Virus record (IMG/VR): IMGVR_UViG_3300027833_001904
Coordinates: 1-61,550 of that record
DNA: 61,550 bases
Direction: 5' to 3' (one strand)
Origin: a virus
Both the position numbers and the translations under genes were made by a program. This document shows positions 3,712-37,650 of the stretch, one piece after another; position 1 is the first letter of the stretch; each line of letters starts with the position of its first letter. The notes under the pieces are model-generated. The model saw only the letters and a list, made by a program, of their open reading frames with translations. It did not search any database and was not told the DNA's origin.

Positions 3712-3721
3712 TTAAAACTAG

Positions 3722-3750
3722 GCCCTCATCTTAAACGGTGAGGGCTTTTT
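3722..3750 (+). terminator. Rho-independent terminator after the tRNA pair
   Basis: Stem GCCCTCA/TGAGGGC with a 10-nt loop, then TTTTT. It separates the tRNA transcript from the metabolic operon that starts at the promoter 15 bp downstream. Confidence 0.9.
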
Positions 3751-3764
3751 ACTTTAATAAAGTC

Positions 3765-3793
3765 TTGACTTAGTATAAAAACTGTTATATAAT
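3765..3793 (+). promoter_or_regulatory. Sigma70-like promoter of the metabolic operon
   Basis: TTGACT at 3765, 17-bp spacer, perfect TATAAT at 3788-3793. It lies just after the terminator and about 35 bp before the first gene of the 3.8-12 kb operon. Confidence 0.8.
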
Positions 3794-3836
3794 GTAAGCA
3801 ATTAATAACAACAGAAAAGTAAAAGGGAGAAAATTA

Positions 3837-4490
3837 ATGTCTGAACTAATGAGTAAGAAACTAAAAGACAGCTATGAAAATGGATTTGATAATACAGCAG
3901 GATCGAAAGAGATCTTTGGAACATGGACTACATACGAAGAAGATATTAATGCAGGGCAATGGCTTGCTCCTGTTAAAGTAGCTGCATATGTCCAGCACAA
4001 CTTTAATCCTAGTGTTAGCATTGGTGATATTGCGTGTGGAACTGGATTAGTTGCAAAACTATTAAAACCAGGCTTTTACACTAACATTGATGGATATGAT
4101 ATTACAGTAGAGTTCTTAGAAAAAGCTAAAGAACATTATAACAATACAGCATACAATGACATTTGTGCAGAAGCATTGCCTAAACAATACGAGGTAGTTA
4201 CTGCAAGTGGAGTATTTGCACCAGGTCACCTAAGTGCATTGCCAAGTAAAAACATTGCAGATAGTTTGCTTCCAGGCGGAACATTTGTTATGAGTAATCC
4301 TAGTAACGCACACGGACACGCATTAATCCCATCAGACTATTCATATATGGAAACAGGTGGATGGAATGCACAACAAGATCTTGTAATGATTTATGAATCA
4401 GATCCATATCCTAGTTTGTTACACAATGGACATCAACACTACCACAGGGTTCGTGCATGGAAACGAGCGAAAGATGTTGCAGTTCTGTAA
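3837..4490 (+). CDS. Class I SAM-dependent methyltransferase
   Basis: 217 residues. Motif I is GDIACGTGLVAKLL at about residues 62-75 and the acidic ribose-binding position follows in IDGYDIT, so an AdoMet-binding Rossmann fold is clear. The order resembles small-molecule methyltransferases of the Williams-Beuren/UbiE type rather than DNA methylases; there is no DPPY-type motif. As the first gene of a ten-gene operon with adenylating enzymes and oxygenases, it probably methylates the pathway intermediate. The substrate is unknown. Confidence 0.8.
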   Translation: MSELMSKKLKDSYENGFDNTAGSKEIFGTWTTYEEDINAGQWLAPVKVAAYVQHNFNPSVSIGDIACGTGLVAKLLKPGFYTNIDGYDITVEFLEKAKEHYNNTAYNDICAEALPKQYEVVTASGVFAPGHLSALPSKNIADSLLPGGTFVMSNPSNAHGHALIPSDYSYMETGGWNAQQDLVMIYESDPYPSLLHNGHQHYHRVRAWKRAKDVAVL

Positions 4491-4493
4491 GTG

Positions 4494-4501
4494 AATAAAT
4501 A
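4494..4501 (+). promoter_or_regulatory. Late-type box AATAAATA
   Basis: T4-late-like AATAAATA a few bases after the methyltransferase stop and 24 bp before the ANL gene start. A transcript starting about 6 nt downstream would have a short leader. It gives the rest of the operon a second, late promoter. Confidence 0.5.
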
Positions 4502-4524
4502 CACATATAATATAGGATACAACA

Positions 4525-5943
4525 ATGAGACCTTTTTACTTACTCCCTAAAAACGACAGCCCAGCATTATCTGACAAATACAGATTACTTACATACGAAC
4601 AACTTATTGCTGAAGTGTTAGCATGTAAGAAAATTTTAAATGCCAGCGGCTATACTAAAGACCACAGAATTGCTATCCAAGGCACTAATAGAGTTGAGAC
4701 TTGGATTTGGATGATTGCGGCATCGTTTGATGGATCAGGAACAACACTTCCATGGAAAGCATCTGAGTATACAGAGAATGCAAGACTAAAGAAAAACAAT
4801 GCTAACGCAGTTGTTAGGTTAAACCACGATGGCACATTAAACGAAATCGATCACAAACACTTTGAAAAGTCAGTAACACAAGAAAAAGAATACATGTGCC
4901 AATACTCAAGTGGCACAACAAACAGATATGGTATTCCAAGTTGCTACAGTGGTGTATATGAACTAGATGAAAACAATTGGGGTGGTGATGGTCGCCAAGC
5001 AATTGCGTATAGAGTCAAAGGCAATCCAGACTTTGCTAACCCAGAAACAAATAGATTCCTAAACATTATGCAACCATATATTCCGTGGTCGCAGGACCTT
5101 ACATATCACACACTGTTAATGGGTGGTTGGGTGCATGTTATTAACGACCCAGACGAATATGATAGTGCATGTGAAATACAAAAGCCTACATGGGTTATTG
5201 GATTTCCATTATCATTGCAAAAAGTTATGGATACCAACAAAGGAACACACAAAGTTAATACTGTAGAATTTACTGGCGGCATTGTAACTACTAAGCAACA
5301 AGAAGATTGGCAAGAGTTTTTTGACCCAGATCAATATATGAATGTATATGGTGAAGGAAGTGTAGGAACTTATTGTGTTAACTTTGCTAAAAAAGGCGAA
5401 GATATTAGACATGTAGGAAAGCCATTAGATTGGTTTATTCATTCAGGCGGTGAAATGCGTATTGGCGAAAAAGGAACAGTAGAAGTGCGTGGACAGAATA
5501 CACCTGGTGACGAATGGTGGGATTCAGATGACCTAGCAGAGATAACACCCGAAGGCAATTATAATATTATAGGTCGTGCAAACGAAGTAATTATCAGCAG
5601 AGGTGGAGCAAATATCTTCCCATATGAGATAGCAGAATTTATTGGACAACATCCTAAAGTAAATGATTGTTATTTGTATAAGATAACAGTAGATGATGAA
5701 CGTGGCGAAATGCCTGGTTGCGTATACAGTGGTGATGTTGGCCCTGAACATTTTTATAACTATGTTAAAAAGAAGATAGAAGGATATCAAGTTCCAGTTA
5801 AGTTCACAAGACTAAGTGACACAGTTCCTAAATTGCTACAAAGCAAAGGCGACAAGTTTCAAGCACCAAAGATTAATTTATTTTTTATGAATGAAACTCT
5901 GCAAGAAAACAGTGAGTGGATTGTTGATGAATACAAAGTCTAA
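4525..5943 (+). CDS. ANL-family adenylating enzyme (acyl-CoA synthetase/AMP-ligase like)
   Basis: 472 residues, close to full length for the family. The phosphate loop is YSSGTTNRYG (about residue 128), the A5-type motif is NVYGEGSVGT, and A7/A8-type motifs are DDLAEITPEGNYNIIGRANEV with ISRGGANIFPYEIAE, followed by a lid domain. The usual Lys of the SGTTGxPK loop is absent (NRYG instead), so substrate or chemistry may differ. It would activate a carboxylate as an acyl-AMP. It overlaps the B12-radical SAM gene by 17 bp. A second, shorter ANL protein is encoded at 9732 in the same operon. Confidence 0.85.
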   Translation: MRPFYLLPKNDSPALSDKYRLLTYEQLIAEVLACKKILNASGYTKDHRIAIQGTNRVETWIWMIAASFDGSGTTLPWKASEYTENARLKKNNANAVVRLNHDGTLNEIDHKHFEKSVTQEKEYMCQYSSGTTNRYGIPSCYSGVYELDENNWGGDGRQAIAYRVKGNPDFANPETNRFLNIMQPYIPWSQDLTYHTLLMGGWVHVINDPDEYDSACEIQKPTWVIGFPLSLQKVMDTNKGTHKVNTVEFTGGIVTTKQQEDWQEFFDPDQYMNVYGEGSVGTYCVNFAKKGEDIRHVGKPLDWFIHSGGEMRIGEKGTVEVRGQNTPGDEWWDSDDLAEITPEGNYNIIGRANEVIISRGGANIFPYEIAEFIGQHPKVNDCYLYKITVDDERGEMPGCVYSGDVGPEHFYNYVKKKIEGYQVPVKFTRLSDTVPKLLQSKGDKFQAPKINLFFMNETLQENSEWIVDEYKV

Positions 5944-7798
5944 TGTATATCTAGCACAATTTAGTTTAACCATAACTCCTGGCAACATGATTTTCATGCC
6001 GTATGCAGTATCATGTGTGTGGAGTTATGCACAGACACACGACGATATTCGAGACAACTATGAAATGAAGGAAGTATTTTTTGAGAAGATACCTCCAAAG
6101 GAAGTAGTAAAAAAGTTAGACAATCCTAAAGTATTTGCATTTGGTTGTTATATTTGGAATTGTAATTACACAGACGAAGTTGCAAAACTAGTCAAAGAAA
6201 AGTTTCCAGAATGTTTAATAGTATATGGTGGCCCACAAATACCAATAACAGCACACGATGAATGGTGGAGCAATCACTCATATGTTGATGTTGTTATATA
6301 TTACGAAGGTGAGAAGCGTTTCACACGAGTGTTAAGATGCAGTTCCAAAGAAGAAATGTCAATGATACCTAATGTAAGTGTTAACTTTGATGGTGACTGG
6401 ACATTTAACTTAGACTATAAAGCAGTTGGTAAAGATAGAATAAAAGACTTAGAACAAATACCAAGTCCGTATCTGTTAGGTATGTTTCCTAATCCACAGC
6501 AAAATTGGATTCCAATTATGGAAACTACAAGAGGTTGTCCATATGCCTGCACATTCTGTGACTTGGGTGCATTGAATCATAATAAAGTTTACAAGACTGA
6601 ATTGGGCAGAGTGCAAGAAGAACTTGATTGGTTAGTAGAAAATAAACTATCAAGTTTCTATTATGTTGATAACAACTTTGGATTATTTAAAGACAGAGAT
6701 GATACTATTGTTGATATGGTTATTGCAAGTAAAGAAAAGCATGGATACCCAAAGAGTTTCTTTGTTAACTGGGCAAAGAATCATAAAGAAGAATTTATTA
6801 ACATGGCAAAGAAACTGTATGATGCAGATGTGCTACAGTCAATAACATTAAGTCTACAAACTAGAAACGAAGAAGCACTAGAAATTATTAAACGTAAAAC
6901 TATGAACATCAACGATATTAGTTTTTATACTGATATGTGTAAACAAGTAGGCTTACCTTACAGCACAGAACTTATGCTGGGCAACCCAGGTGAAACTGTT
7001 GATAGTTGGAAAGATGGATACATAGAAGTAGTTGCCGACGGTATCAGTTGTGACATATACGCAGTAGCACTACTACCAGGCGCAGAACTGGCATCAGAAG
7101 CAAGTTTAAAAGAACATGGAATAGAATATGAACCAGTTCAGTTTCCAGGCGTAGCCAACCCAAAGTATCGTCCAGTAAAAGAATGGATGAATCAAATTGT
7201 AGCTACTAAGTATATGAATAGAAACGAAATGCGTGAGATGTTTGAATGGACTTGGTGCACCAGATTAGGACACGAGTTCAACTTTACACGTGAACTAGCA
7301 AATTATTGTGAGAAACACAATGTTGCTACAATGCGTGAGTTCTACGACAGCTTCTATGAGTATATAAATACTAGTAAGGGTATATTAAACAAGTATTATA
7401 CAGATGTATTGTTGTTTAGAACTGAAAAGTATGAATACACTCTTGCACTAAAAAATATACAATTCAGAGATAATTTAAGTTTAGAAGATAGAGAACTTGT
7501 TAAGACAGACATTAAAGCATTTGCAAGCCAATATAATCTACCTAATGATTTAATTGAATATAATGACGCTAAAATGTTCAGAGGTGATGTAAATTATCCT
7601 TGGCGTATTAAGTTTGATTATGACTTCTTAAATGATATAGATCAAAAAGTAGAAATTGAATTTACAGAAACAGGACACGGTAGAGCTACATCAACCCGAG
7701 ATAATCTACTAGTAGGAACAGATACAGTAGATGAAGAATATAAAAGAAAGAAGAGAATGGTATGCACCAGGACGAATGGGACAATAGTGAGTTTGTAA
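5927..7798 (+). CDS. B12-binding-domain radical SAM enzyme
   Basis: 623 residues from the ATG at 5927; an upstream ATG at 5891 would lie deep in the previous gene. Residues about 60-140 look like a cobalamin-binding Rossmann domain (FGCYIWNC, then IVYGGPQIP). The radical SAM core follows, with the cluster motif CPYACTFC (Cys about 204, 208, 211) after METTRG, then YVDNNFG and a GNPGETVDSW strand. The C-terminal 180 residues resemble the extra domain found in this class. Such enzymes do radical methylation or rearrangement at unactivated carbons. The B12 loop lacks an obvious DxHxxG, as in many members. It is central to the operon and the most telling sign of an unusual small-molecule pathway. 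Confidence 0.88.
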   Translation: MNTKSNVYLAQFSLTITPGNMIFMPYAVSCVWSYAQTHDDIRDNYEMKEVFFEKIPPKEVVKKLDNPKVFAFGCYIWNCNYTDEVAKLVKEKFPECLIVYGGPQIPITAHDEWWSNHSYVDVVIYYEGEKRFTRVLRCSSKEEMSMIPNVSVNFDGDWTFNLDYKAVGKDRIKDLEQIPSPYLLGMFPNPQQNWIPIMETTRGCPYACTFCDLGALNHNKVYKTELGRVQEELDWLVENKLSSFYYVDNNFGLFKDRDDTIVDMVIASKEKHGYPKSFFVNWAKNHKEEFINMAKKLYDADVLQSITLSLQTRNEEALEIIKRKTMNINDISFYTDMCKQVGLPYSTELMLGNPGETVDSWKDGYIEVVADGISCDIYAVALLPGAELASEASLKEHGIEYEPVQFPGVANPKYRPVKEWMNQIVATKYMNRNEMREMFEWTWCTRLGHEFNFTRELANYCEKHNVATMREFYDSFYEYINTSKGILNKYYTDVLLFRTEKYEYTLALKNIQFRDNLSLEDRELVKTDIKAFASQYNLPNDLIEYNDAKMFRGDVNYPWRIKFDYDFLNDIDQKVEIEFTETGHGRATSTRDNLLVGTDTVDEEYKRKKRMVCTRTNGTIVSL

Positions 7799-8316
7799 TA
7801 GAACTCCCACAACTAGAGTTTAATCCAGAAACCTTCCTGGAACAGATGCAAGGAATAGAACTTAAAGACTACGTTAGTGCGTATGGCAAGCCCACTGGCT
7901 TGCAAGTAAGTTATGCACCAGAATTAATTCAAACACAAATTGTAAAACATTATCTTGATATTTTTAAAGACTTTAAGATTCCAATAGGTGATATAGAAAA
8001 CAATCATGCACACGGCGATGGATTATATGGGTGGAGTTATATTAAAACAAAAGCAAACGCTCCGTTGCAAAGACACACAGACGCAGTAAGAGAAGCAAGT
8101 ATTACATTTCCGTTAACATTCCCACAGGAATTGAATTTTTTTAGTAGCAAAGAATCAACCGAAAAATTAGTATATGAATATAAACCAGTTATTGTGATAA
8201 TAAATGCAAAACACAAATGGCATTCAGTTGATCCAAGCAATGAGCCTAGATTACAGTTTCAACTTGATTGTTTTAATCCATGGGATGAGATTAAAGAACT
8301 AGTTAAAGCATTATGA
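7762..8316 (+). CDS. Putative 2OG-Fe(II) oxygenase (short form)
   Basis: 184 residues. A possible facial triad is H in LQRHTDAVRE (HxD about residue 104) and a distal His in KHKWHSVDPS, with Arg in EPRLQFQLD as the 2-oxoglutarate ligand; the double-stranded helix spacing is normal. It overlaps the radical SAM gene by 37 bp and the next gene by an ATGA, so it is part of the same operon. Hydroxylation or desaturation of the operon product is the likely job. Aspartyl/prolyl hydroxylase-like folds are the closest I recognise. Confidence 0.65.
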   Translation: MHQDEWDNSEFVIELPQLEFNPETFLEQMQGIELKDYVSAYGKPTGLQVSYAPELIQTQIVKHYLDIFKDFKIPIGDIENNHAHGDGLYGWSYIKTKANAPLQRHTDAVREASITFPLTFPQELNFFSSKESTEKLVYEYKPVIVIINAKHKWHSVDPSNEPRLQFQLDCFNPWDEIKELVKAL

Positions 8317-8948
8317 ATCCAGTAATTGTAATTAATGTAAACATGGCGTCTAAAGGACACCAAATTGGAAGATTAGTATCAAGTTGTAGTAATATTACTT
8401 GGTATGATCATCCTGGCAATGGAAACAATCCATGGGAACCATGTAATAATATATTAAATGCAGAACTAAGTGGCTTTCATTACGATAGACGATTTGCAGA
8501 CAACAGCACAATACCACCTGTGTTAGATTTTAGTAGACGCAGTGGATTGCCAGAGCGTCCAGTTATAGAATACAAAGATAGATTGCTAACATACATAACA
8601 CACAGCTATTTAGATGAGTCACGTGAGTATTTTAATGGTAAACATCTTGTGGTGTTACACAAAGACCTAGACAGGTTTATGAATACATCATGGAAATTTA
8701 GAGTAGGTAAAACAAAAAGACTTGTTAGTGAATTATACACAGAAGAACAAATAGTAGAAATGCTAAACAGCATATACGATAATTACAAAGACAATATAAC
8801 AGAGGATGATTTTGTTATTGAATCAATAGATGAACTATTTGATCAAGATATTTTTAAAAACATGTGTAATAAATTAGAATTAGAGTTTAATGAAGATAGA
8901 TATATACAAGTGAAGAGATTTATAAATGCAAACACACTTATTAACTAA
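8313..8948 (+). CDS. Sulfotransferase-like protein (tentative)
   Basis: 211 residues. The N-terminus is a strand followed by MASKGHQIGRLVSS, which resembles the PAPS-binding loop of sulfotransferases, and the C-terminus has a helix plus LELEFNEDRY typical of the end of that fold. No other signature is present and the length is short, so a sulfotransferase is a working guess. It sits in the operon by ATGA coupling to the oxygenase before it and a 23-bp overlap with the gene after it. Confidence 0.4.
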   Translation: MNPVIVINVNMASKGHQIGRLVSSCSNITWYDHPGNGNNPWEPCNNILNAELSGFHYDRRFADNSTIPPVLDFSRRSGLPERPVIEYKDRLLTYITHSYLDESREYFNGKHLVVLHKDLDRFMNTSWKFRVGKTKRLVSELYTEEQIVEMLNSIYDNYKDNITEDDFVIESIDELFDQDIFKNMCNKLELEFNEDRYIQVKRFINANTLIN

Positions 8949-9462
8949 AGAAGTATTCCCACAGTTGGAAACTTTCTTTGATACTGCAAAGGAATTAAAG
9001 TATCTAAACAATGTTAGTAAACGTGCTATGAAATACGACTGGTGTTTAGACTTTGGTGGAATGTGGCATTGTGCAATAGATGATAATAATCGCATGGTAA
9101 GTTTAGCAGGCTGTCATCCATTACCAGAAGTTGATGACAATGCTTGGAGAGTAATGTTTAGAGGAGTTCAAATACCAGGAGATTATGGATTTGGATTAAG
9201 TAAATATCATATGAGTGCATTAACATGGAGATTACTATTGCCATTGCAATTAGAATATATCGATAACGCAGATGCATATATAACTACTAACATCTCACAT
9301 GATGCAAGTGGTAAAATGAATAAGACACACAGATTATTTCAACAGTTAGAGAAACTGGGTATGGTTGAACATTATAATGACATGGAACTATATCACACTG
9401 ATCAAAGTGTTTGGAAACTAAACAAAGAGAAATATATGGAGGTAAGAAGCAATGTGGTTTAA
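8926..9462 (+). CDS. GNAT-like acyltransferase (tentative)
   Basis: 178 residues. The pattern of a helix pair, a strand with WHCAIDDNNRMVSLAGCHP, then RGVQIP and a C-terminal ITTN...KTHRLFQQLEKLGMV block (a peptide motif common in GNAT proteins where a helix precedes E/KLGF) suggests an N-acyltransferase. The acetyl-CoA pyrophosphate loop is not canonical. With ANL enzymes in the same operon, transfer of an activated acyl group would make sense. Uncertain. Confidence 0.4.
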   Translation: MQTHLLTKEVFPQLETFFDTAKELKYLNNVSKRAMKYDWCLDFGGMWHCAIDDNNRMVSLAGCHPLPEVDDNAWRVMFRGVQIPGDYGFGLSKYHMSALTWRLLLPLQLEYIDNADAYITTNISHDASGKMNKTHRLFQQLEKLGMVEHYNDMELYHTDQSVWKLNKEKYMEVRSNVV

Positions 9463-9730
9463 TTGGAAACATCTAAGAGATGCAGAATATCTTAGTAAAA
9501 GCAAACGTGAAAATGGAGTAGTGTTATACTTCAAACACATGTGGGTTGGATTTAGAGAAGCAGGAAAACAATTGCTAATGGCTATTGCTAGTGTATTACA
9601 TGCAATATTTCCACCATTGTTTGATTTCAAATTACTTGATATAGTAATTGATCAAACTATAGGCTTACATAAGTTTTTGCCAGATCATCCAAGTTGGCAG
9701 AGACTAAAAGACGAATTAAAGAAGAAATAA
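9452..9730 (+). CDS. DUF6356-like small protein
   Basis: 92 residues with a hydrophobic centre: a helix GFREAGKQLLMAIASVLHAIFPPLF followed by a second LDIVIDQTIGLH. This matches the pattern I recall for DUF6356 (capsule-biosynthesis-like small proteins). A GGAGG ribosome site lies inside the end of the previous gene, which it overlaps by 11 bp. It could anchor operon enzymes at the membrane. Function unknown. Confidence 0.5.
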   Translation: MWFNWKHLRDAEYLSKSKRENGVVLYFKHMWVGFREAGKQLLMAIASVLHAIFPPLFDFKLLDIVIDQTIGLHKFLPDHPSWQRLKDELKKK

Positions 9731-9731
9731 T

Positions 9732-10430
9732 ATGAACTTAGACAATCTTAAATTAATACTGGAACACGGAATCACAATTAACACAAGTGGAACAACTGGT
9801 GAACCAAAAAGCATAACACAGACACCTGAGAAGATGAAATTTGCAGACGAGATTGCAATTGATAGTCAACAGTTGACTAAAAATTCTAAAATATATACAG
9901 TTTGCAAAATACAACATGCAGGTGGATTACTAGCACAAACATTACCAGGTATTAGACTTGGAGCAGAAGTTGTTATAGACGATTTTAATGCATATAGATG
10001 GGTAAGAGAAATAAACAAGTATACACATTCGCATCTTACACCTAATCATGCAAAAGCAATAATGAAAACCAAAGGCTGGCGATTATTAGATTTAACTGGC
10101 GTATGGATAACATGTGGAAGTGATCCGGTTCCTTGGGATACTATTAGTGCATTTGTAGAAAAAGGTGCAACATTTATGGCAAATTGGGGTATGACAGAAA
10201 TTGGTCCATGTGCTATTAATACTGTATTTGAAACATTAGACAAAGTAGAAGAATATAAACAAGAATTAACTATTGTAGGCGATAGATTCTATTGCGATAC
10301 TACAGTAGGACCAGATGGGCAATTATATGTTAAAGGTGATATAAGCACATATGGAGATAATTGGTTTGCTACAAAAGATGTAGTAAAAGAAGAAAATAAC
10401 AGCTATTATTACGTTAAAAGGGCGTATTAG
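9732..10430 (+). CDS. Minimal ANL adenylating domain, lacking N-terminal part and lid
   Basis: 232 residues. The phosphate loop NTSGTTGEPKS starts at residue 17, with the canonical Lys, so the N-terminal region of normal ANL enzymes is missing. The A5 motif is NWGMTEIGP near residue 155, and a DGQLYVKGD...DNWFATKDV stretch matches the A7 region. The protein stops at YYYVKRAY, so the C-terminal lid domain is also absent. It resembles compact o-succinylbenzoate-CoA ligase-like forms. It could work alone as an adenylate former or complement the full-size ANL protein at 4525, whose loop lacks the Lys. Confidence 0.78.
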   Translation: MNLDNLKLILEHGITINTSGTTGEPKSITQTPEKMKFADEIAIDSQQLTKNSKIYTVCKIQHAGGLLAQTLPGIRLGAEVVIDDFNAYRWVREINKYTHSHLTPNHAKAIMKTKGWRLLDLTGVWITCGSDPVPWDTISAFVEKGATFMANWGMTEIGPCAINTVFETLDKVEEYKQELTIVGDRFYCDTTVGPDGQLYVKGDISTYGDNWFATKDVVKEENNSYYYVKRAY

Positions 10431-10484
10431 ACGCTCAAATACCGTCATACAAGCACGAATTACACATAGGAAACAAATTATAAC

Positions 10485-11270
10485 ATGGCAATATTAGAAT
10501 TAGAAGTGTTAAAAGTTCAACACTACACAGATGACTTATTTCACTTTACAATAGCAAGAGATCCAGGATTAAGATTCAGAGATGGAGAATTTGTAATGAT
10601 TGGACTGAATAATTGGTCTGAAAAGCTACAAAAGAATAAACCAATTATGCGAGCATACAGTGTAGCAAGTCCTAACCACCAAGACACTATTGAATTTTAT
10701 AGTATTAAAGTGCAAGACGGACCATTAACAAGCAGATTACAGCATGTAGTTCCAGGTGACAAAATATTAGTTAATGATAAAGCAGTAGGCACACTAGTTA
10801 ATGCAAATATAAAACCAGGGCGTAATTTATATTTACTAGCAACAGGCACAGGTGTAGCACCTTTCTTATCATTAGCACGTGGAGTAGACACATACGAATA
10901 TTATGACAACGTCATTTTAGTGTGGGGTGCAAGAACAGTTGCAGAACTTCCATTTGATGCAATGTTTAGAAATCTAAACGAAGATGAAATATACCAACAT
11001 GTAACAGAAGGTAAATTTAAGTTTTATCCTACTGTCACAAGACAGTCATATGAAAACGAAGGTCGTGTAACAACAGCAATGTATGACGGCAAAGTGCAAG
11101 AAGCATTGGATTTGCCAATGCTAGATCCAGAACATGACAGAATTATGATATGTGGTAGCATACCAATGAATGAAGAATTAATAGAATGGCTAGAAGTATT
11201 AGGATTTGAAGAAGGTAATAATAAGTATCCAGGAACTTATGTAGTTGAAAGGGCGTTTGTAAGTTCATGA
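10485..11270 (+). CDS. fpr: Ferredoxin/flavodoxin-NADP reductase-like flavoenzyme
   Basis: 261 residues with the two-domain FNR plan. FAD domain: RAYSVAS near residue 53 and a strand KVQDGPLTSRL. NAD(P) domain: LLATGTGVAPFLSLAR near residue 121, VWGAR, then MICGSIPMNEEL and C-terminal ERAFVS (the family usually ends with a Glu-aromatic type tail). It would move electrons between NADPH and ferredoxin or flavodoxin. In this operon it could reduce the radical SAM cluster and B12, which both need low-potential electrons. Overlaps the next gene by four bases. Confidence 0.85.
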   Translation: MAILELEVLKVQHYTDDLFHFTIARDPGLRFRDGEFVMIGLNNWSEKLQKNKPIMRAYSVASPNHQDTIEFYSIKVQDGPLTSRLQHVVPGDKILVNDKAVGTLVNANIKPGRNLYLLATGTGVAPFLSLARGVDTYEYYDNVILVWGARTVAELPFDAMFRNLNEDEIYQHVTEGKFKFYPTVTRQSYENEGRVTTAMYDGKVQEALDLPMLDPEHDRIMICGSIPMNEELIEWLEVLGFEEGNNKYPGTYVVERAFVSS

Positions 11271-12016
11271 TTTATACTGAGTTACTTGATAAGCACAGAA
11301 ATACTATTGTAAATAACTTTGAACCAGCACGGTGCGAAGAAAATGTATTTACTGAACATGACTTACATCAATTAACTTTGTATCAATTTCAAAATGCAGA
11401 TGATTTGCGTTGGACAGACTCAAGTAGCAATATCCAACCTATATTAAATGTTACACGACTGTTTGAATACTTTCCATGGATGCAAGATAAATTTGAATCT
11501 ATACTAAAACATGATTTTAGTGAACATCACACAGGTAATTATTATATTACTACACAGCTACATGACGCACACGTAGATCTAATGACAGAAGCTGAAACAG
11601 AATTTGACTGGGCAGAAAACTTAATACCATACAAAAGTTGTGTAATACCATTGGGTATCACAGCAGGCGCAGAAGCCTACACAGCATTTTTTAAGCAACG
11701 ACATATTGGAACGAGCATAACATTTGATCGTGTTGGACAAAGTTCACAAGACAAAAGCATGTATGAAATTGCACGTGAGTATCCAGATCTAGAAACAATA
11801 GATACTCCAACACTGGAAAATACAGATTATATATTCCCACACATAGATGAGGGTAATATATGTGACTTTGATTTGGAAGCGGTGTTTCCATTTCAACCCG
11901 GCAATGCATTAGTATTTGATGCATGCCAGTTACACGCAAGTTGTGTAACACGTAGACGACCAAACTTTAATTCACTGAAAACAGGAATAAATATTCAGTT
12001 TTATATTAAGGTATAA
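11267..12016 (+). CDS. 2OG-Fe(II) oxygenase-like protein, paralogue of the gene at 33727
   Basis: 249 residues. HxD is seen in LHDAHVDLM (about residue 97) and the distal His in DACQLHASC near the C-terminus, with a Lys/Arg-rich strand and NIQFY end. The paralogue at 33727 shares the NNF/DRFEPA start, GNYYIT, DAHVDL, DACQxHASC and the closing G-x-NIQFY. The family looks like the cupin-fold dioxygenases common in marine T4-like phages. It closes the operon; its stop codon lies inside the next late promoter box. Confidence 0.7.
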   Translation: MIYTELLDKHRNTIVNNFEPARCEENVFTEHDLHQLTLYQFQNADDLRWTDSSSNIQPILNVTRLFEYFPWMQDKFESILKHDFSEHHTGNYYITTQLHDAHVDLMTEAETEFDWAENLIPYKSCVIPLGITAGAEAYTAFFKQRHIGTSITFDRVGQSSQDKSMYEIAREYPDLETIDTPTLENTDYIFPHIDEGNICDFDLEAVFPFQPGNALVFDACQLHASCVTRRRPNFNSLKTGINIQFYIKV

Positions 12017-14233: not shown

Positions 14234-15238
14234 ATGCTTTACTCAACCATAAACAGTCTTCAATTTGATTTAAACGTTACTTGCAATGCATATTGCCCTG
14301 GTTGCCATAGACATACAATGGTAAACGGCGAGATGTATATGAATCCATTCCTACCATTTAATACTAGTCTTAATATTGATATAGTAGAACGTGTAATGGA
14401 AAACCCAAGACTTAGCGATAATGTAGAAGTAGACTTTGTAGGATTAGTAGGCGAGCCTATTGCTCATCAACAATTTCTAGAGATTATAGATATTATCTAT
14501 AAGCATAGACCAAATGCAAGAGTTAATATTCACACAAATGGTGGATTGCGTTCCGTAGAGTTCTTTACACAGCTTGCTAAAAAATTAAAAGATAAATCTC
14601 ATCAAGTGCAATTTTCAATCGATGGATTAGAAGATACAAACAGTTTATATCGTGTAGGTGTAAATTGGGATAAAGTAATGGAAAATCTACAAGCATTTAT
14701 AGATGCTGGTGGTCGTGCAGTATGGAAGTTTTTGCTTTTTCCATACAATAAACATCAAACAGAAGAAGCAAGACAATTGGCATTTTCAATGGGAGTTAAA
14801 AACTTTCGTCCAGAGAGAAATAGAGACGAAGGACAAGAACTGTATACACGTTATATGAAAGCATATAAAAAGTTTCACCCAAAAACACTAGGTGAAAAAG
14901 GCCATGCACAGGACAAAGGATATGACATAAATCAGTTTAACGAATCCCAAGGCATTGCAAATAGATGCTTTGACGAAGATGCAATTTATATAAATTACGA
15001 AGGCGTAGTATTACCATGTTGTATGTTTAATTCTGGATTAACAGATGAATCATATATGAAAGAGATGGTCCCATATATTAAAGGAAATACTTGCCATCAA
15101 AATGATGATGAAAATTGGAATAGCCTATATCATAATACATTAGAAGATGTTATGAATAATAGCTGGTGGGACAAGTTATATGGCGATTTAGACACAACTC
15201 CATGCACCGTTTGTGTGCATTCTTGCGGAATTCATTAA
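14234..15238 (+). CDS. Radical SAM/SPASM enzyme, copy 1
   Basis: 334 residues. The [4Fe-4S]-AdoMet motif is CNAYCPGC (Cys 17, 21, 24). Then GLVGEPIAH, a HTNGG strand and FSIDGLEDTN are typical of the core barrel. The C-terminal SPASM/twitch part has CFDEDAIYINYEGVVLPCC and CTVCVHSCG, enough Cys for auxiliary clusters. It is closely similar to the gene at 17907 and more distantly to those at 36607 and 33679. SPASM enzymes mostly modify peptides or proteins; no precursor peptide is evident beside it. Expression seems late and leaderless. Confidence 0.9.
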   Translation: MLYSTINSLQFDLNVTCNAYCPGCHRHTMVNGEMYMNPFLPFNTSLNIDIVERVMENPRLSDNVEVDFVGLVGEPIAHQQFLEIIDIIYKHRPNARVNIHTNGGLRSVEFFTQLAKKLKDKSHQVQFSIDGLEDTNSLYRVGVNWDKVMENLQAFIDAGGRAVWKFLLFPYNKHQTEEARQLAFSMGVKNFRPERNRDEGQELYTRYMKAYKKFHPKTLGEKGHAQDKGYDINQFNESQGIANRCFDEDAIYINYEGVVLPCCMFNSGLTDESYMKEMVPYIKGNTCHQNDDENWNSLYHNTLEDVMNNSWWDKLYGDLDTTPCTVCVHSCGIH

Positions 15239-17906: not shown

Positions 17907-18905
17907 ATGCTTTATAAGAAAATAGATACAGTTGAGTTCGATCTTAACACAGTATGCAATAGTTATTGTCCGCCTTGTCATAGATATACAGTCCAAGACG
18001 GTGAGCTATTTCATAACCCACATGTAAAATTAGGTGTTAACTTAGAGTTAGACGTAATTGAGCGAGTGTTTGAGAACAGTAGAATTGCAGATGATTGTTT
18101 TGTCGATCTTGTAGGATTAGTAGGCGAACCAATTGCACACCCAAAGTTTATGGAAATTATAGATATTATCTATAAGCACAAACCTCATGCTGGAATAAAC
18201 TTACATACAAATGGTGGATTACGCACTGAAAAAATGTTCTATGATTTAGGCAAAAAGTTTAACAAGCACAGTTGGGTTAAATTTTCAATAGATGGATTAG
18301 AAGATACAAATGGTATATATCGTATTGGAGTAGACTATAATAAAGTAGTTGCAAATATGCGAGCATTCATAGATGGCGGAGGCCGTGCAATATGGAAATT
18401 TGTTACATTTCCGTGGAATGAACATCAAGTAGAACAAGCCGAAGCCTTAGCAAAAGAATATGGTTGCTATAAATTTCAACAAGATTGGGATGTGCATGAC
18501 CAAGATATACATGGATACATGGCTGCTGCACAGAAGAAAATTAATAAAAAGGTAGCGGCAGTAAGTGGTGGAGATGTTGAATTACCTGAGTTTGAATCAT
18601 ACACAATAGAAGATCGATGCTTTACATATAAAAAGATATATGTAAATGCACATGGATACGTTATCCCATGTTGTATGTTTAACGGTGCATTTACATATGT
18701 TAATTATAGAGAACAAACACTGAATTTTATTAAAGAAGGCAGAGACGAATACTGGAACAGTTTATATCATAATGACTTAGAAAGTATAATGAGTGATACA
18801 TGGTGGCAAAAACTAAAAGACAGTTTTGATGGCAATGCCTGTAACGTGTGTGTCAATGCGTGTAGTAATAATTCTGTAATTAAAAATGAACGCTATTTTG
18901 ATTGA
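17907..18905 (+). CDS. Radical SAM/SPASM enzyme, copy 2
   Basis: 332 residues. Cluster motif CNSYCPPC (Cys 17, 21, 24), GLVGEPIAHP, HTNGG, FSIDGLEDTNG, and C-terminal CFTYKKIYVNAHGYVIPCC and CNVCVNACS for auxiliary clusters. It is a close paralogue of the 14234 gene; the two probably act on related or paired substrates. A 2OG oxygenase gene follows shortly after. Confidence 0.9.
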   Translation: MLYKKIDTVEFDLNTVCNSYCPPCHRYTVQDGELFHNPHVKLGVNLELDVIERVFENSRIADDCFVDLVGLVGEPIAHPKFMEIIDIIYKHKPHAGINLHTNGGLRTEKMFYDLGKKFNKHSWVKFSIDGLEDTNGIYRIGVDYNKVVANMRAFIDGGGRAIWKFVTFPWNEHQVEQAEALAKEYGCYKFQQDWDVHDQDIHGYMAAAQKKINKKVAAVSGGDVELPEFESYTIEDRCFTYKKIYVNAHGYVIPCCMFNGAFTYVNYREQTLNFIKEGRDEYWNSLYHNDLESIMSDTWWQKLKDSFDGNACNVCVNACSNNSVIKNERYFD

Positions 18906-32773: not shown

Positions 32774-33038
32774 ACCAGTCCCATCTCCAAGGCAGTATTG
32801 AATAACCTAACATATTAAAATACATTTCAATTAGATACGTGAATAATATAAAGAAAGTTGTTTTAACTATAAATCTCCACGGTTGAGGTAAACTATTCTG
32901 CCATCTATTGAATCTACTTCCTTGGACTTTCTCTTCTAGATTATTTTTAGTCCATATCTTTTCTGCCCACCAGCCTGCATCTAAAATATTTTTTAGCATA
33001 ATAACTGGCCAGAATATAATTTTAATTATACGTTTCAT
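32774..33038 (-). CDS. Membrane protein embedded between radical SAM halves
   Basis: The stop ends at 32772. 88 residues with hydrophobic ends: IIKIIFWPVIMLKNIL near the N-terminus and WRFIVKTTFFILFTYLIEMYFNML near 57-80, Trp-rich tail. Its ATG overlaps the radical SAM stop (ATGA) and its stop overlaps the SPASM start, so the three are made in order from one message. It may bring the split enzyme to the membrane. Confidence 0.7.
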
Positions 33039-33679
33039 TTCAACTCCTCTATAAGTTCTTTACATGCTGCTTTGTTTTCATCACTTATTAAACCTAGACT
33101 ACGGTTGTTAAATTTAAAGTTAATATTAATACCATGTTCTTTTGCCATTGCATACGCCTCAGTAACTTCTTGCCAATTCCATTCAAAAATAAGAAAGTGC
33201 CATTCCATTTCAGCATCTGTTTTTGCCATTGCTATCATATTATCCATAGCCCGTTGCCAATCCACACCTTCTCTATATTTCCAATTACTCTCATGGGTTA
33301 TACCATCTATCCCAAAAATTATCACAAATCCATGGCCATGCTTGTTGCCCATCTTAGTATACCAGTCTGGAGTTCTTAGTCCGCCATTTGTATTGATAAT
33401 AAGTCTATTTACGCTTTCTTTAGATAATGCACGATCAACAAATTTTGTTATATCAGGATGCATCATAGGATCGCCTAGCTCTCCGCAAAATTGAATAGTT
33501 TTTAATTTATCAGGAGAACCAGTAAGCACCTTATCAAATAAATCATAGGGCATATGGCTAGGAATTAACCAATCTTCGGGTTGACCTGTGTCTTGGTTAG
33601 TTCGTTGGCAGCTTCTGCATCTTGCCTGACAATATGTCGTAATAGCAAAATCAGTCCATATTATAGGCTCATGTATCAT
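33035..33679 (-). CDS. Radical SAM core protein (N-terminal half of a split radical SAM/SPASM enzyme)
   Basis: 214 residues from the ATG at 33679, which sits five bases after a late box; an ATG at 33694 lies within that box. Cys 17, 21, 24 in CQARCRSC, FCGELGDPMMHP, NTNGG and FGIDGITHESN follow the core order of the other copies. It ends at ELIEELK where the others continue into the SPASM domain, which here is a separate ORF. Confidence 0.87.
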   Translation of the reverse strand: MIHEPIIWTDFAITTYCQARCRSCQRTNQDTGQPEDWLIPSHMPYDLFDKVLTGSPDKLKTIQFCGELGDPMMHPDITKFVDRALSKESVNRLIINTNGGLRTPDWYTKMGNKHGHGFVIIFGIDGITHESNWKYREGVDWQRAMDNMIAMAKTDAEMEWHFLIFEWNWQEVTEAYAMAKEHGININFKFNNRSLGLISDENKAACKELIEELK

Positions 33680-33684
33680 ACTTG

Positions 33685-33692
33685 TATTTAGC
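33685..33692 (-). promoter_or_regulatory. Minus-strand late box GCTAAATA, leaderless geometry
   Basis: Read on the minus strand: box, five bases (CAAGT), ATG at 33679. Back-to-back with the plus-strand box CATAAATA at 33692-33699. Confidence 0.68.
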
Positions 33693-33699
33693 ATAAATA
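33692..33699 (+). promoter_or_regulatory. Plus-strand late box CATAAATA
   Basis: Abuts the minus-strand box, giving a divergent pair that would express the split radical SAM operon and the 2OG oxygenase together. Here a leader with AAAAGGA precedes the ATG at 33727. Confidence 0.6.
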
Positions 33700-35816: not shown

Positions 35817-36227
35817 ATGGCATATTCAGACAAAGTAATGGATCATTATGAGAACCCACGTAATGTAGGTAAGTTTGATCCCAAAGAAAGTAATATTGGA
35901 ACAGGAATGGTTGGAGCTCCTGCTTGCGGTGATGTAATGAGATTACAAATTCAAGTAGAAGATGGTATTATTACTGATGCTAAATTTAAAACATATGGTT
36001 GTGGTAGTGCAATTGCAAGTAGCAGTTTACTAACTACAATGGTAAAAGGTATGAATTTAGAAGAAGCTGGTGCAATCCAAAACATGGACCTTGCAGATGA
36101 ACTTGCATTACCTCCAGTTAAGATTCACTGTAGTGTATTAGCCGAAGATGCAATTAAATCTGCAATAGCAGATTATCAAGGCAAAAACCCAGTGCCAGAA
36201 GGCGCCAATTATTTTGAAATTAAATAA
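35817..36227 (+). CDS. iscU: Fe-S cluster scaffold IscU
   Basis: 136 residues. All ligands are present: Cys37 with Asp39 (PACGD), Cys62 (YGCGSA), His104-Cys105 (KIHCSV), and the LPPVK motif (98-102) by which the HscA chaperone binds IscU. The phage brings no HscA in this window, so a host or distant phage chaperone would be needed. The C-terminus has a slightly longer acidic tail than the E. coli protein. Confidence 0.95.
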   Translation: MAYSDKVMDHYENPRNVGKFDPKESNIGTGMVGAPACGDVMRLQIQVEDGIITDAKFKTYGCGSAIASSSLLTTMVKGMNLEEAGAIQNMDLADELALPPVKIHCSVLAEDAIKSAIADYQGKNPVPEGANYFEIK

Positions 36228-36230
36228 AGG

Positions 36231-36259
36231 TTGACATTTTATACACTTTCGTGTATAAA
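36231..36259 (+). promoter_or_regulatory. tmRNA promoter, TTGACA-17-TATAAA
   Basis: Consensus -35 with 17-bp spacing; predicted start near 36266, just ahead of the acceptor piece. Confidence 0.82.
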
Positions 36260-36265
36260 TAACAT

Positions 36266-36590
36266 TGTAACGTTGAAGCGATTTGACGACTATACTGGAC
36301 CTCGGGGCAGTACCGAGCAGCTCCACCAAAAACATACTAGTGTCCAGTTAAGTTTGGAACACATCTGATAAAGTGGCTAGTATGTTTTTGATGGGGCTGA
36401 ACTAGGATCGACAGGTAGGATAGATGAGTGGAGTTACCGGGATGTAAGCGCCGTTACCGCGAACAAACTTTATAATTGCAAATAACAATTATGCGCCAGA
36501 AATGGCATTAGCAGCCTAGAGTTGCTATGAGGTAACTATACCTTATTACCCAAACTAGTAGAAAGGGTGTCTTAGGGCACCCTTTTTTGA
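36266..36590 (+). ncRNA. ssrA: Circularly permuted two-piece tmRNA
   Basis: The acceptor part (about 36268-36328) comes first: T-arm CTCGG-GGCAGTA-CCGAG, then CAGCTCC-ACCA. The usual 5-prime end GGGGCTG (36393-36399) comes after it and pairs with CAGCTCC in seven pairs, with the G-U third pair of alanine RNAs. The segment between forms a 12-bp perfect stem, AAAACATACTAG with CTAGTATGTTTT (36329-36340 and 36377-36388), the processed loop of permuted pre-tmRNA. The tag frame starts at GCA 36478 and ends at TAG 36517: ANNNYAPEMALAA. Such permutation is typical of alphaproteobacteria. It rescues stalled ribosomes and tags proteins for ClpXP/ClpAP. Confidence 0.95.
36563..36588 (+). terminator. 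tmRNA terminator
   Basis: AAGGGTG-TCTTAGGG-CACCCTT with a run of six T. Confidence 0.93.
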
Positions 36591-36606: not shown

Positions 36607-37650
36607 ATGATATATTCCAAGAAGCCATTAATATTACAATTAGAATTAAGCAGTATGTGTAATGCATTATGCTTAGGCTGTCAGCGTGTCGATCCAAATA
36701 CATTTAACAGTGTGCATCCAGATATCCCTAAAAAGGAAATGATATCAGTTGATACAATACACAAATTAATGAATAGCCCAGCAATGGCTAGTATAGAGGA
36801 AATACAATTTTGTGGAACAATAGACGAGCCACTAATGCATCCAAATTTTATGGAAATACTAGATGTTATGTATGAAGCGAATCCAGAACTAGACATAGAA
36901 ATACATACAAATGCAAGTTTAAGGACAACTGAATTTTGGAGAGACCTAGCACATAAGTTATCCAAGTTTAAGAAACATAAAGTATTATTTGGCATAGATG
37001 GGTTAGTTGACACACATGAAATATATAGACAGCAAACAAATTTTGATCTCATTATTAGAAATGCAGTGCATTTTATACGTGCAGGCGGGAATGCACAATG
37101 GCAGTATATTATCTTTCCATGGAATAAACATCAAGTAGAAGAAGCACGTAACATGAGTAATAGTTTAGGATTTAAGGAATTTAAAACTCGTAATGATAGA
37201 AGTGGAGTAAGCGAAGAAGGACTTGACTTAGTAAGAGAAATACAACAAAATCCAACAACTAGTAAAGAAGGAACAGATGTGAGTATATACAATGGGTATG
37301 CGATTAGTTGTATGAATCACGATGAAGACATGTATCATGTTTCATACGATGGCAGACTTTGGCCTTGTTGCTATTTTGGTAATGTAAAGTATATGGGTCC
37401 AAAATTGTATAACGAATTTAAGCAGAGAATATTTGGAGTGTATGGCGAAGATTTTAATTTACTTACCAAACACACAGTAGAAGAAATATTAGATTCAGAT
37501 TTATATAAAAACGATTTAGTAGAGTCTTGGAATAATCCAATAGGTTGCGGCAGTAAAGATAAAGTAAATCGTTGTGCAATGTCGTGTAGTGTAAAAGCAC
37601 TTGAAACCAGACCAATTGCAACAGCACATAAAATTACAGAAAACTTTTAA
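36607..37650 (+). CDS. Radical SAM/SPASM enzyme, copy 3
   Basis: 347 residues. Cluster motif CNALCLGC (Cys 18, 22, 25), FCGTIDEPLMHP, HTNAS, FGIDGLVDTHE, FPWNKHQVEEA; C-terminal CMNHDEDMYHVSYDGRLWPCC and a final CAMSC with a further Cys in NPIGCGS. More distant from copies 1 and 2, nearer to the split copy (GRLWPCC, FCGxxxxPxMHP). Downstream of the Fe-S genes and tmRNA. Confidence 0.9.
   Translation: MIYSKKPLILQLELSSMCNALCLGCQRVDPNTFNSVHPDIPKKEMISVDTIHKLMNSPAMASIEEIQFCGTIDEPLMHPNFMEILDVMYEANPELDIEIHTNASLRTTEFWRDLAHKLSKFKKHKVLFGIDGLVDTHEIYRQQTNFDLIIRNAVHFIRAGGNAQWQYIIFPWNKHQVEEARNMSNSLGFKEFKTRNDRSGVSEEGLDLVREIQQNPTTSKEGTDVSIYNGYAISCMNHDEDMYHVSYDGRLWPCCYFGNVKYMGPKLYNEFKQRIFGVYGEDFNLLTKHTVEEILDSDLYKNDLVESWNNPIGCGSKDKVNRCAMSCSVKALETRPIATAHKITENF

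Follow-up and report, generated by a model that had tools for sequence, protein, structure and literature searches.

Cobalamin-dependent radical S-adenosylmethionine (SAM) methylases of the TokK/CysS type, known from antibiotic pathways, are valued for their ability to methylate unactivated carbons. Here, we describe a putative mobile cassette of four genes (g1-g4) that encodes an enzyme of this class in a virus fragment from IMG/VR (IMGVR_UViG_3300027833_001904; 61,550 bases, hereafter the window), where it opens a run of ten genes (g1-g10; Table 1). In cystobactamid biosynthesis, the oxygenase CysC hydroxylates, CysF O-methylates and the cobalamin-dependent radical-SAM enzyme CysS extends the methyl group; a structural study of this system used substrates that mimic the native thioester and are linked to pantetheine (PMC12846815). 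Since the cassette encodes the CysC, CysF and CysS enzyme classes and, in addition, a ligase that would activate the acid, its most economical reading is a pathway that activates, hydroxylates, methylates and C-methylates an acid. By this analogy, we give a probability of roughly 0.5 to g1-g4 being a horizontally mobile, phage-borne pathway cassette that lies in a hypervariable island and makes a tailored acid by a CysC/CysF/CysS-like route.

The radical-SAM motif of g3 is RGCPYACTFC, and RGCPYACxFC with three invariant cysteines (CxxxCxxC) is present in six of six aligned sequences. The nearest solved structures in a profile search are TokK (293 bits) and CysS (198 bits), over approximately 460 residues, and the top NCBIfam family is KedN5 (NF033712; 220.5 bits, short of the subfamily cut-off of 700 bits). 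An N-terminal B12-binding domain scores 1.4e-6 in Pfam (28.5 bits against a cut-off of 32.1), and the alignment to TokK spans this domain. By these profile and motif matches, g3 belongs to the TokK/CysS/KedN5 class of predicted cobalamin-dependent radical-SAM methylases; its start is probably at 5927 rather than 5891. A PADLOC match of 5927-7795 to the candidate defense protein PDC-M51A (1.5e-26) is at the superfamily level only, and we rejected a defense assignment for g3. The best profile match of g2 is the coronafacate ligase Cfl (1.4e-26), with similarity over the full length and with the A7 Asp, A8 Gly-Arg and A10 Lys invariant. No Pfam family matched g4, in which H105, D107, H154 and R163 are invariant across the family; an AlphaFold2 model (predicted local distance difference test score, 72) matched P4H, AlkB and PHD2 folds in the PDB (E 2e-6, TM 0.5-0.6). 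Its motif and modeled double-stranded beta-helix fold identify g4 as a predicted Fe(II)/2-oxoglutarate (2OG) oxygenase, as the initial annotation had proposed from the sequence alone. That annotation's methyltransferase, ANL, B12-type radical SAM, minimal ANL and DUF6356 calls likewise have Pfam or NCBIfam backing, weak for several of them. Ratios of nonsynonymous to synonymous substitution (dN/dS; pairwise against the related locus L007, from printed dN and dS) are ~0.07-0.12 for g1-g3, and by this measure the core cassette genes appear to be under purifying selection.

We located the core block in other viral loci (L numbers) by scans started from the ligase and from the radical SAM; scans based on the miniature ANL are biased to loci with g8, and counts call for caution because one phage is represented by several nearly identical contigs (L003, L012, L032, L033 and others). 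The block co-occurs in at least four phage backbones, in varying order. One backbone family comprises the window, L003-type loci, L007 and L092, the last two cut by contig ends; L092 shows the ligase, methyltransferase and radical SAM before its contig stops. The core lies directly after homologues of T4-like gp47/gp46 (SbcD/SbcC) in L029, L030 and L031. Two ligase genes stand in tandem in L108, with methyltransferase, radical SAM and 2OG genes after them; L107 combines a single ligase with a tandem pair of radical SAMs and a 2OG enzyme. These changes in order, together with the tandem radical SAM and tandem ANL variants, fit product diversification, and L107, with two radical SAMs and no methyltransferase, suggests an alternative decoration. 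The genes could instead share no pathway, being unrelated morons gathered by recombination in a permissive island, and the strong mosaicism of the island (changed order, g1 alone in L008, g6 missing in L004) is what such gathering would produce. However, g1-g4 stay together across different backbones at 30-45% identity, which makes a chance grouping very unlikely.

All ten open reading frames that the initial annotation had joined into a single functional operon are present on the + strand, from 3837 to 12016, but comparison with viral contigs by tblastn and synteny led us to reject the ten-gene unit. The genes g9 and g10, with those downstream to ~21 kb, are kept in L003, L004 and L005 (mostly 53-97% identity, and 87-96% for g9-g10), whereas g1-g8 differ or are missing in relatives that keep g9-g10. 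For this reason we assign g9-g10 to the phage backbone and g1-g8 to a hypervariable island. At this position L003 carries ANL, methyltransferase, radical SAM and 2OG genes (34-42% identity) together with a block in inverted orientation that includes genes resembling g5 and g6; in L004 the core gives way to another ligase, a nitroreductase and a transporter of the ProX/ProW type. The genes g5-g8 are also found apart from g1-g4: g6-g7-g8, with a DUF6356-like protein or a similarly placed 75-residue counterpart, recur without the core in other phages (L013-L027). Judged by these alignments, the run is made up of three predicted units, namely the g1-g4 core, a separate mobile module (g5-g8) and the backbone genes g9-g10. 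Conserved gene order in relatives had been named beforehand as the test of a pathway; g1-g4 recur as a block and all ten genes do not, and the finding is therefore stronger at four genes than at ten. A biosynthesis-like pathway, as first proposed, is supported for g1-g4 (a recurring block, purifying selection, a radical SAM nearest TokK and CysS) and not for the ten-gene extent.

Features of transcription agree in part with what had been described. The promoter is present as reported (11/12 consensus matches, just 3' of a hairpin). DNA upstream of g1 in the relatives L001/L007 is unrelated to that of the window and holds another gene, so the promoter is local and no part of the cassette. No terminator was found near 12016, and the transcript may therefore continue past this point. 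The genes are tightly packed, but the ATGA overlaps said to join them occur at two of the nine junctions (8313 and 11267, 4 bp each); four junctions overlap by 11-37 bp, and three are gaps of 1, 34 and 54 bp.

We infer the steps, order and substrate of the cassette pathway from the cystobactamid analogy. The ligase g2 would convert a carboxylic acid to an acyl-AMP and probably then to a coenzyme A (CoA) or pantetheine thioester, and g4 would hydroxylate the activated acid with Fe(II) and 2OG. A methyl group would next be placed by g1 on the new oxygen (or another heteroatom), and one or more methyls by g3 on an unactivated carbon, through methylcobalamin and 5'-deoxyadenosyl-radical chemistry. 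We speculate that the resulting branched alkyl or alkoxy acyl group may be attached to the host envelope, through an amine or hydroxyl there, or be released as a small molecule. The second module, with its sulfotransferase fold, possible acyltransferase, membrane protein and miniature ANL, is a candidate for the last transfer step, with no strict linkage to the core.

Electrons for g3 could flow from NADPH through g9 to a host or phage ferredoxin or flavodoxin. This backbone protein, first called an NADPH-flavin reductase, is instead a bacterial ferredoxin-NADP reductase (FNR): it matches ten distinct FNR sequences in the PDB at 1e-66 or better, reaching ~1e-74 to 4b4d over its full length, and we ruled out the flavin reductase assignment in favor of FNR. 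The reductase may serve the radical enzyme, as proposed. However, searches of L004 and L025, which keep the FNR, turned up no B12 radical SAM, and we therefore do not consider the FNR dedicated to g3. In another phage lineage an FNR homologue directly adjoins SPASM-type radical SAM genes (L022:3872-6700), a hint that FNR serves radical enzymes generally. The other backbone gene, g10, has no family match; H102, D104 and H223 are invariant in four close relatives, so that its annotation as a 2OG oxygenase is backed by the HxD...H pattern alone.

Table 1. Features at the left border of the island and in the g1-g10 run (window coordinates)
Feature	Coordinates	Strand	Basis
Terminator-like hairpin after tRNA-Ala, left border of hypervariable island	3720..3747	+	Sequence
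Sigma-70-like promoter TTGACT-17-TATAAT, 11/12 consensus matches, outside cassette	3765..3793	+	Sequence
g1, class I SAM methyltransferase, core cassette	3837..4490	+	Pfam Methyltransf_23 (3e-6); family alignment
g2, predicted ANL adenylating enzyme/ligase with N and C domains, core cassette	4525..5943	+	Pfam/NCBIfam; motifs
g3, predicted cobalamin-dependent radical-SAM methylase, TokK/CysS/KedN5-like, core cassette	5927..7798	+	Profiles; motif; tree
g4, predicted small Fe(II)/2OG oxygenase, core cassette	7762..8316	+	HxD..H..R; AlphaFold2 model fold
g5, candidate sulfotransferase-fold P-loop protein, second module	8313..8948	+	Model fold search
g6, candidate "GNAT-like" protein, phage family, second module	8926..9462	+	Weak PDB match
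g7, DUF6356-like small membrane protein, second module	9452..9730	+	Pfam; relatives
g8, miniature ANL, A3 to A8 hinge, without C-domain, second module	9732..10430	+	Motifs
g9, bacterial-type ferredoxin/flavodoxin-NADP reductase, phage backbone	10485..11270	+	Solved FNR matches
g10, probable 2OG oxygenase (HxD...H), phage backbone	11267..12016	+	Motif; relatives

Several observations weigh against a CysC/CysF/CysS-like route to a tailored acid. The cassette contains no carrier protein, nonribosomal peptide synthetase (NRPS), polyketide synthase or condensation enzyme, and Pfam and NCBIfam searches of g1-g10 identified no scaffold-building enzyme, carrier protein or precursor peptide. The ligase g2 belongs to the radical SAM-linked subgroup, in which both the A5 Glu and the A3 Lys typical of ANL enzymes are replaced, and its competence for adenylation is putative. 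The methyltransferase g1 could act on oxygen, nitrogen or carbon; because L107 lacks it, an O-methyl-then-extend order cannot hold everywhere. A g1 methyltransferase (84% identity) also stands in a different phage without the other cassette genes (L008:8127-8771).

A further point of this kind is that in other phages the ligase family adjoins transporters, hinting at uptake or catabolism. An auxiliary metabolic role, in which the ligase and the oxidative and methyl-transferring enzymes convert an imported small carboxylate or quaternary amine and feed host carbon, nitrogen or methyl metabolism, would account for ligase-family loci that carry OpuAC/ProX and BPD permease genes (L004, L021, L116) or TctA/TctC (L017), and for the nitroreductase, TauD-type oxygenase and aldo/keto reductase-like genes at such loci. 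However, the ligases linked to transporters form a subgroup that has diverged from the g2 type (17-31% identity to g2), and no B12 radical SAM was found in the records of theirs that were searched. To our knowledge, cobalamin radical methylation is a catabolic step in no known pathway. We therefore consider an auxiliary metabolic role unlikely on this evidence, although the initial annotation's contrast between a pathway and a host metabolic helper is softened, a role in host metabolism being possible for the family. Phage genes for ABC transporters of the glycine-betaine type (OpuAC and a permease) also adjoin g1-family methyltransferases (L004:6479-8327 and L116:13664-15514), and a phage TctA and TctC-like gene of the tripartite tricarboxylate transporter lies near a g2-family ligase (L017:16165-18715).

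The second module is less readily assigned than the core. The modeled fold of g5 (predicted local distance difference test score, 64) matches SULT7A1 best (E 1.5e-3, prob 1.0), giving modest backing to the earlier sulfotransferase-like call; it has no Pfam match, and the canonical P-loop motif was not seen. The GNAT-like call for g6 lacks Pfam backing: none of nine family members has a GNAT match there, and a single PDB GNAT match is weak (E 0.14). No g6 relatives were found in 289 alphaproteobacterial genomes, in a search run without a positive control. Across several islands that have otherwise diverged, g7 is 81-97% identical; in L013 it is 95% identical and its flanking genes 56-62%, which suggests recombination around g7. 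All 11 g8 homologues end just past the A8 hinge Gly-Arg position, which marks g8 as a conserved architecture rather than a decayed gene; A3, A5 and A7 are intact, and a C-terminal domain with the catalytic lysine is absent. Any adenylation by g8 and 10 homologues would have to proceed without this lysine. Completion of g8 by the C-domain of g2, as a split ANL, was not supported, with g8 present where g2 was not found (L013, L015, L022).

Surface modification is a plausible role for the cassette. In a broader version, the whole g1-g8 island would serve superinfection exclusion or envelope glycan modification by placing an activated methylated acyl group and sulfate onto host surface sugars. The hypervariable location favors this, as do the membrane protein g7, the sulfotransferase-fold g5 and the miniature ANL g8 that adjoin the core, and one report proposes that pelagimyophage hypervariable islands change host surfaces (PMC7029224). 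Yet the island yielded no gene recognized as a glycosyltransferase or nucleotide-sugar gene, L029-L031 carry the core but lack g5-g8, other phages carry g6-g8 but lack the core, and we regard a whole-island function of this type as somewhat unlikely.

Relatives of the g3 radical SAM were found in 78 viral loci. A quick tree of 81 sequences, the best matches of two pattern scans, contains mainly one viral clade (34 viral rows and one short genome contig; SH-aLRT 85), within which the six core-cassette proteins are united at 100. In T4-like phages, an arrangement of two radical SAMs and a 2OG gene lies between prohead protease-like and portal genes in 22 of the 28 loci that have both a portal and a radical SAM gene. 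By gene content, these blocks appear to be an independent pairing of the g3 radical-SAM class with a 2OG enzyme. The tandem B12 radical SAM and 2OG-motif genes of T4-like loci (L035-L065; e.g., L042, L049, L080) are often accompanied by a glucosyltransferase-like gene.

Cobalamin-dependent radical-SAM enzymes also C-methylate side chains of methyl-coenzyme M reductase. The radical SAM and 2OG enzymes might similarly C-methylate and hydroxylate side chains of virion or host proteins, leaving the ligase another part, and both the position of the T4-like blocks and the presence of protein-acting prolyl hydroxylases among the nearest folds of g4 are in keeping with this. The T4-like copies, however, lie on the strand opposite to the structural genes, no structural gene was recognized next to the window cassette, which carries an ANL and a small molecule-type methyltransferase, and the closest solved relatives, TokK and CysS, work on small molecules. 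Protein modification is thus quite unlikely as the cassette's function.

As for the origin of the proposed acid-tailoring cassette, the partners sought (methyltransferase, 2OG, miniature ANL and sulfotransferase) were near radical SAM relatives in 0 of 80 genome loci, which gave two weak ligase matches only. Import from a bacterial cluster is not backed by these loci, a conclusion limited to that sample. Cultured phages yielded one weak match to the g3 radical SAM (24% identity) and none to the miniature ANL g8. We tentatively entertain, with less confidence than the cassette itself, a virus-specific natural product-like pathway, in which marine phages would carry and diversify the cassette to make a branched acyl product during infection, and which would have evolved within viruses rather than having been taken recently from a bacterial cluster.

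The window is best read, from its gene content, as part of a large phage infecting an alphaproteobacterium. Its ClpA-like ATPase is most similar to counterparts in jumbo phages of Sinorhizobium and Agrobacterium (40-41%), and it carries eleven tRNA or transfer-messenger RNA (tmRNA) genes. The tmRNA (36227-36588; tag ANNNYAPEMALAA) is permuted, two-piece and of the alphaproteobacterial type (alpha_tmRNA, 96.5 bits), which points to the host class. Four more radical SAM genes are present (14234-15238, 17907-18905, 33035-33694 and 36607-37650); three match phrog_21308 and the fourth matched Pfam Radical_SAM alone.

A largely viral radical SAM clade in a mobile four-enzyme cassette implies that phages may carry out small-molecule chemistry of their own in the marine bacteria that they infect. 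The cassette may link the fitness of the phage to vitamin B12 in the host, and it offers compact new enzymes for biochemistry and a target for infection metabolomics. We found no description of a B12-type four-gene cassette in the open-access literature searched. Pelagimyophages carry radical SAM cassettes in hypervariable islands (PMC7029224), a T4-like genome has 12 radical SAM genes (PMC5332604) and Campylobacter phages have 11-12 (PMC2853527). These sets resemble ours in that large phages hold multiple radical SAM genes, some of them swappable; the passages found in these reports describe no B12-type radical SAM and no block of ANL, methyltransferase and 2OG genes.

Among individual enzymes, g9 is alike over its full length to Rhodobacter-type FNR (PDB 2bgi, 4b4d) and differs in being a phage-encoded backbone gene. 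Within the ANL superfamily (MenE, 4-chlorobenzoyl-CoA ligase, Cfl), g2 is similar over its full length but differs at the A3 Lys and A5 Glu, and g8 retains the A3-A8 core only. The cassette resembles the CysC-CysF-CysS tailoring of alkoxy-benzoates in combining an oxygenase, a SAM methyltransferase and a cobalamin-dependent radical SAM enzyme that would act on an activated acid (PMC12846815), but has a small 2OG oxygenase and a stand-alone ANL, with no NRPS or carrier protein. Finally, whereas g3 falls in a virus-dominated clade, without carbapenem, enediyne or cystobactamid partner genes, it shares with the TokK, ThnK, CysS and KedN5 methylases the same domain order and the CxxxCxxC motif.

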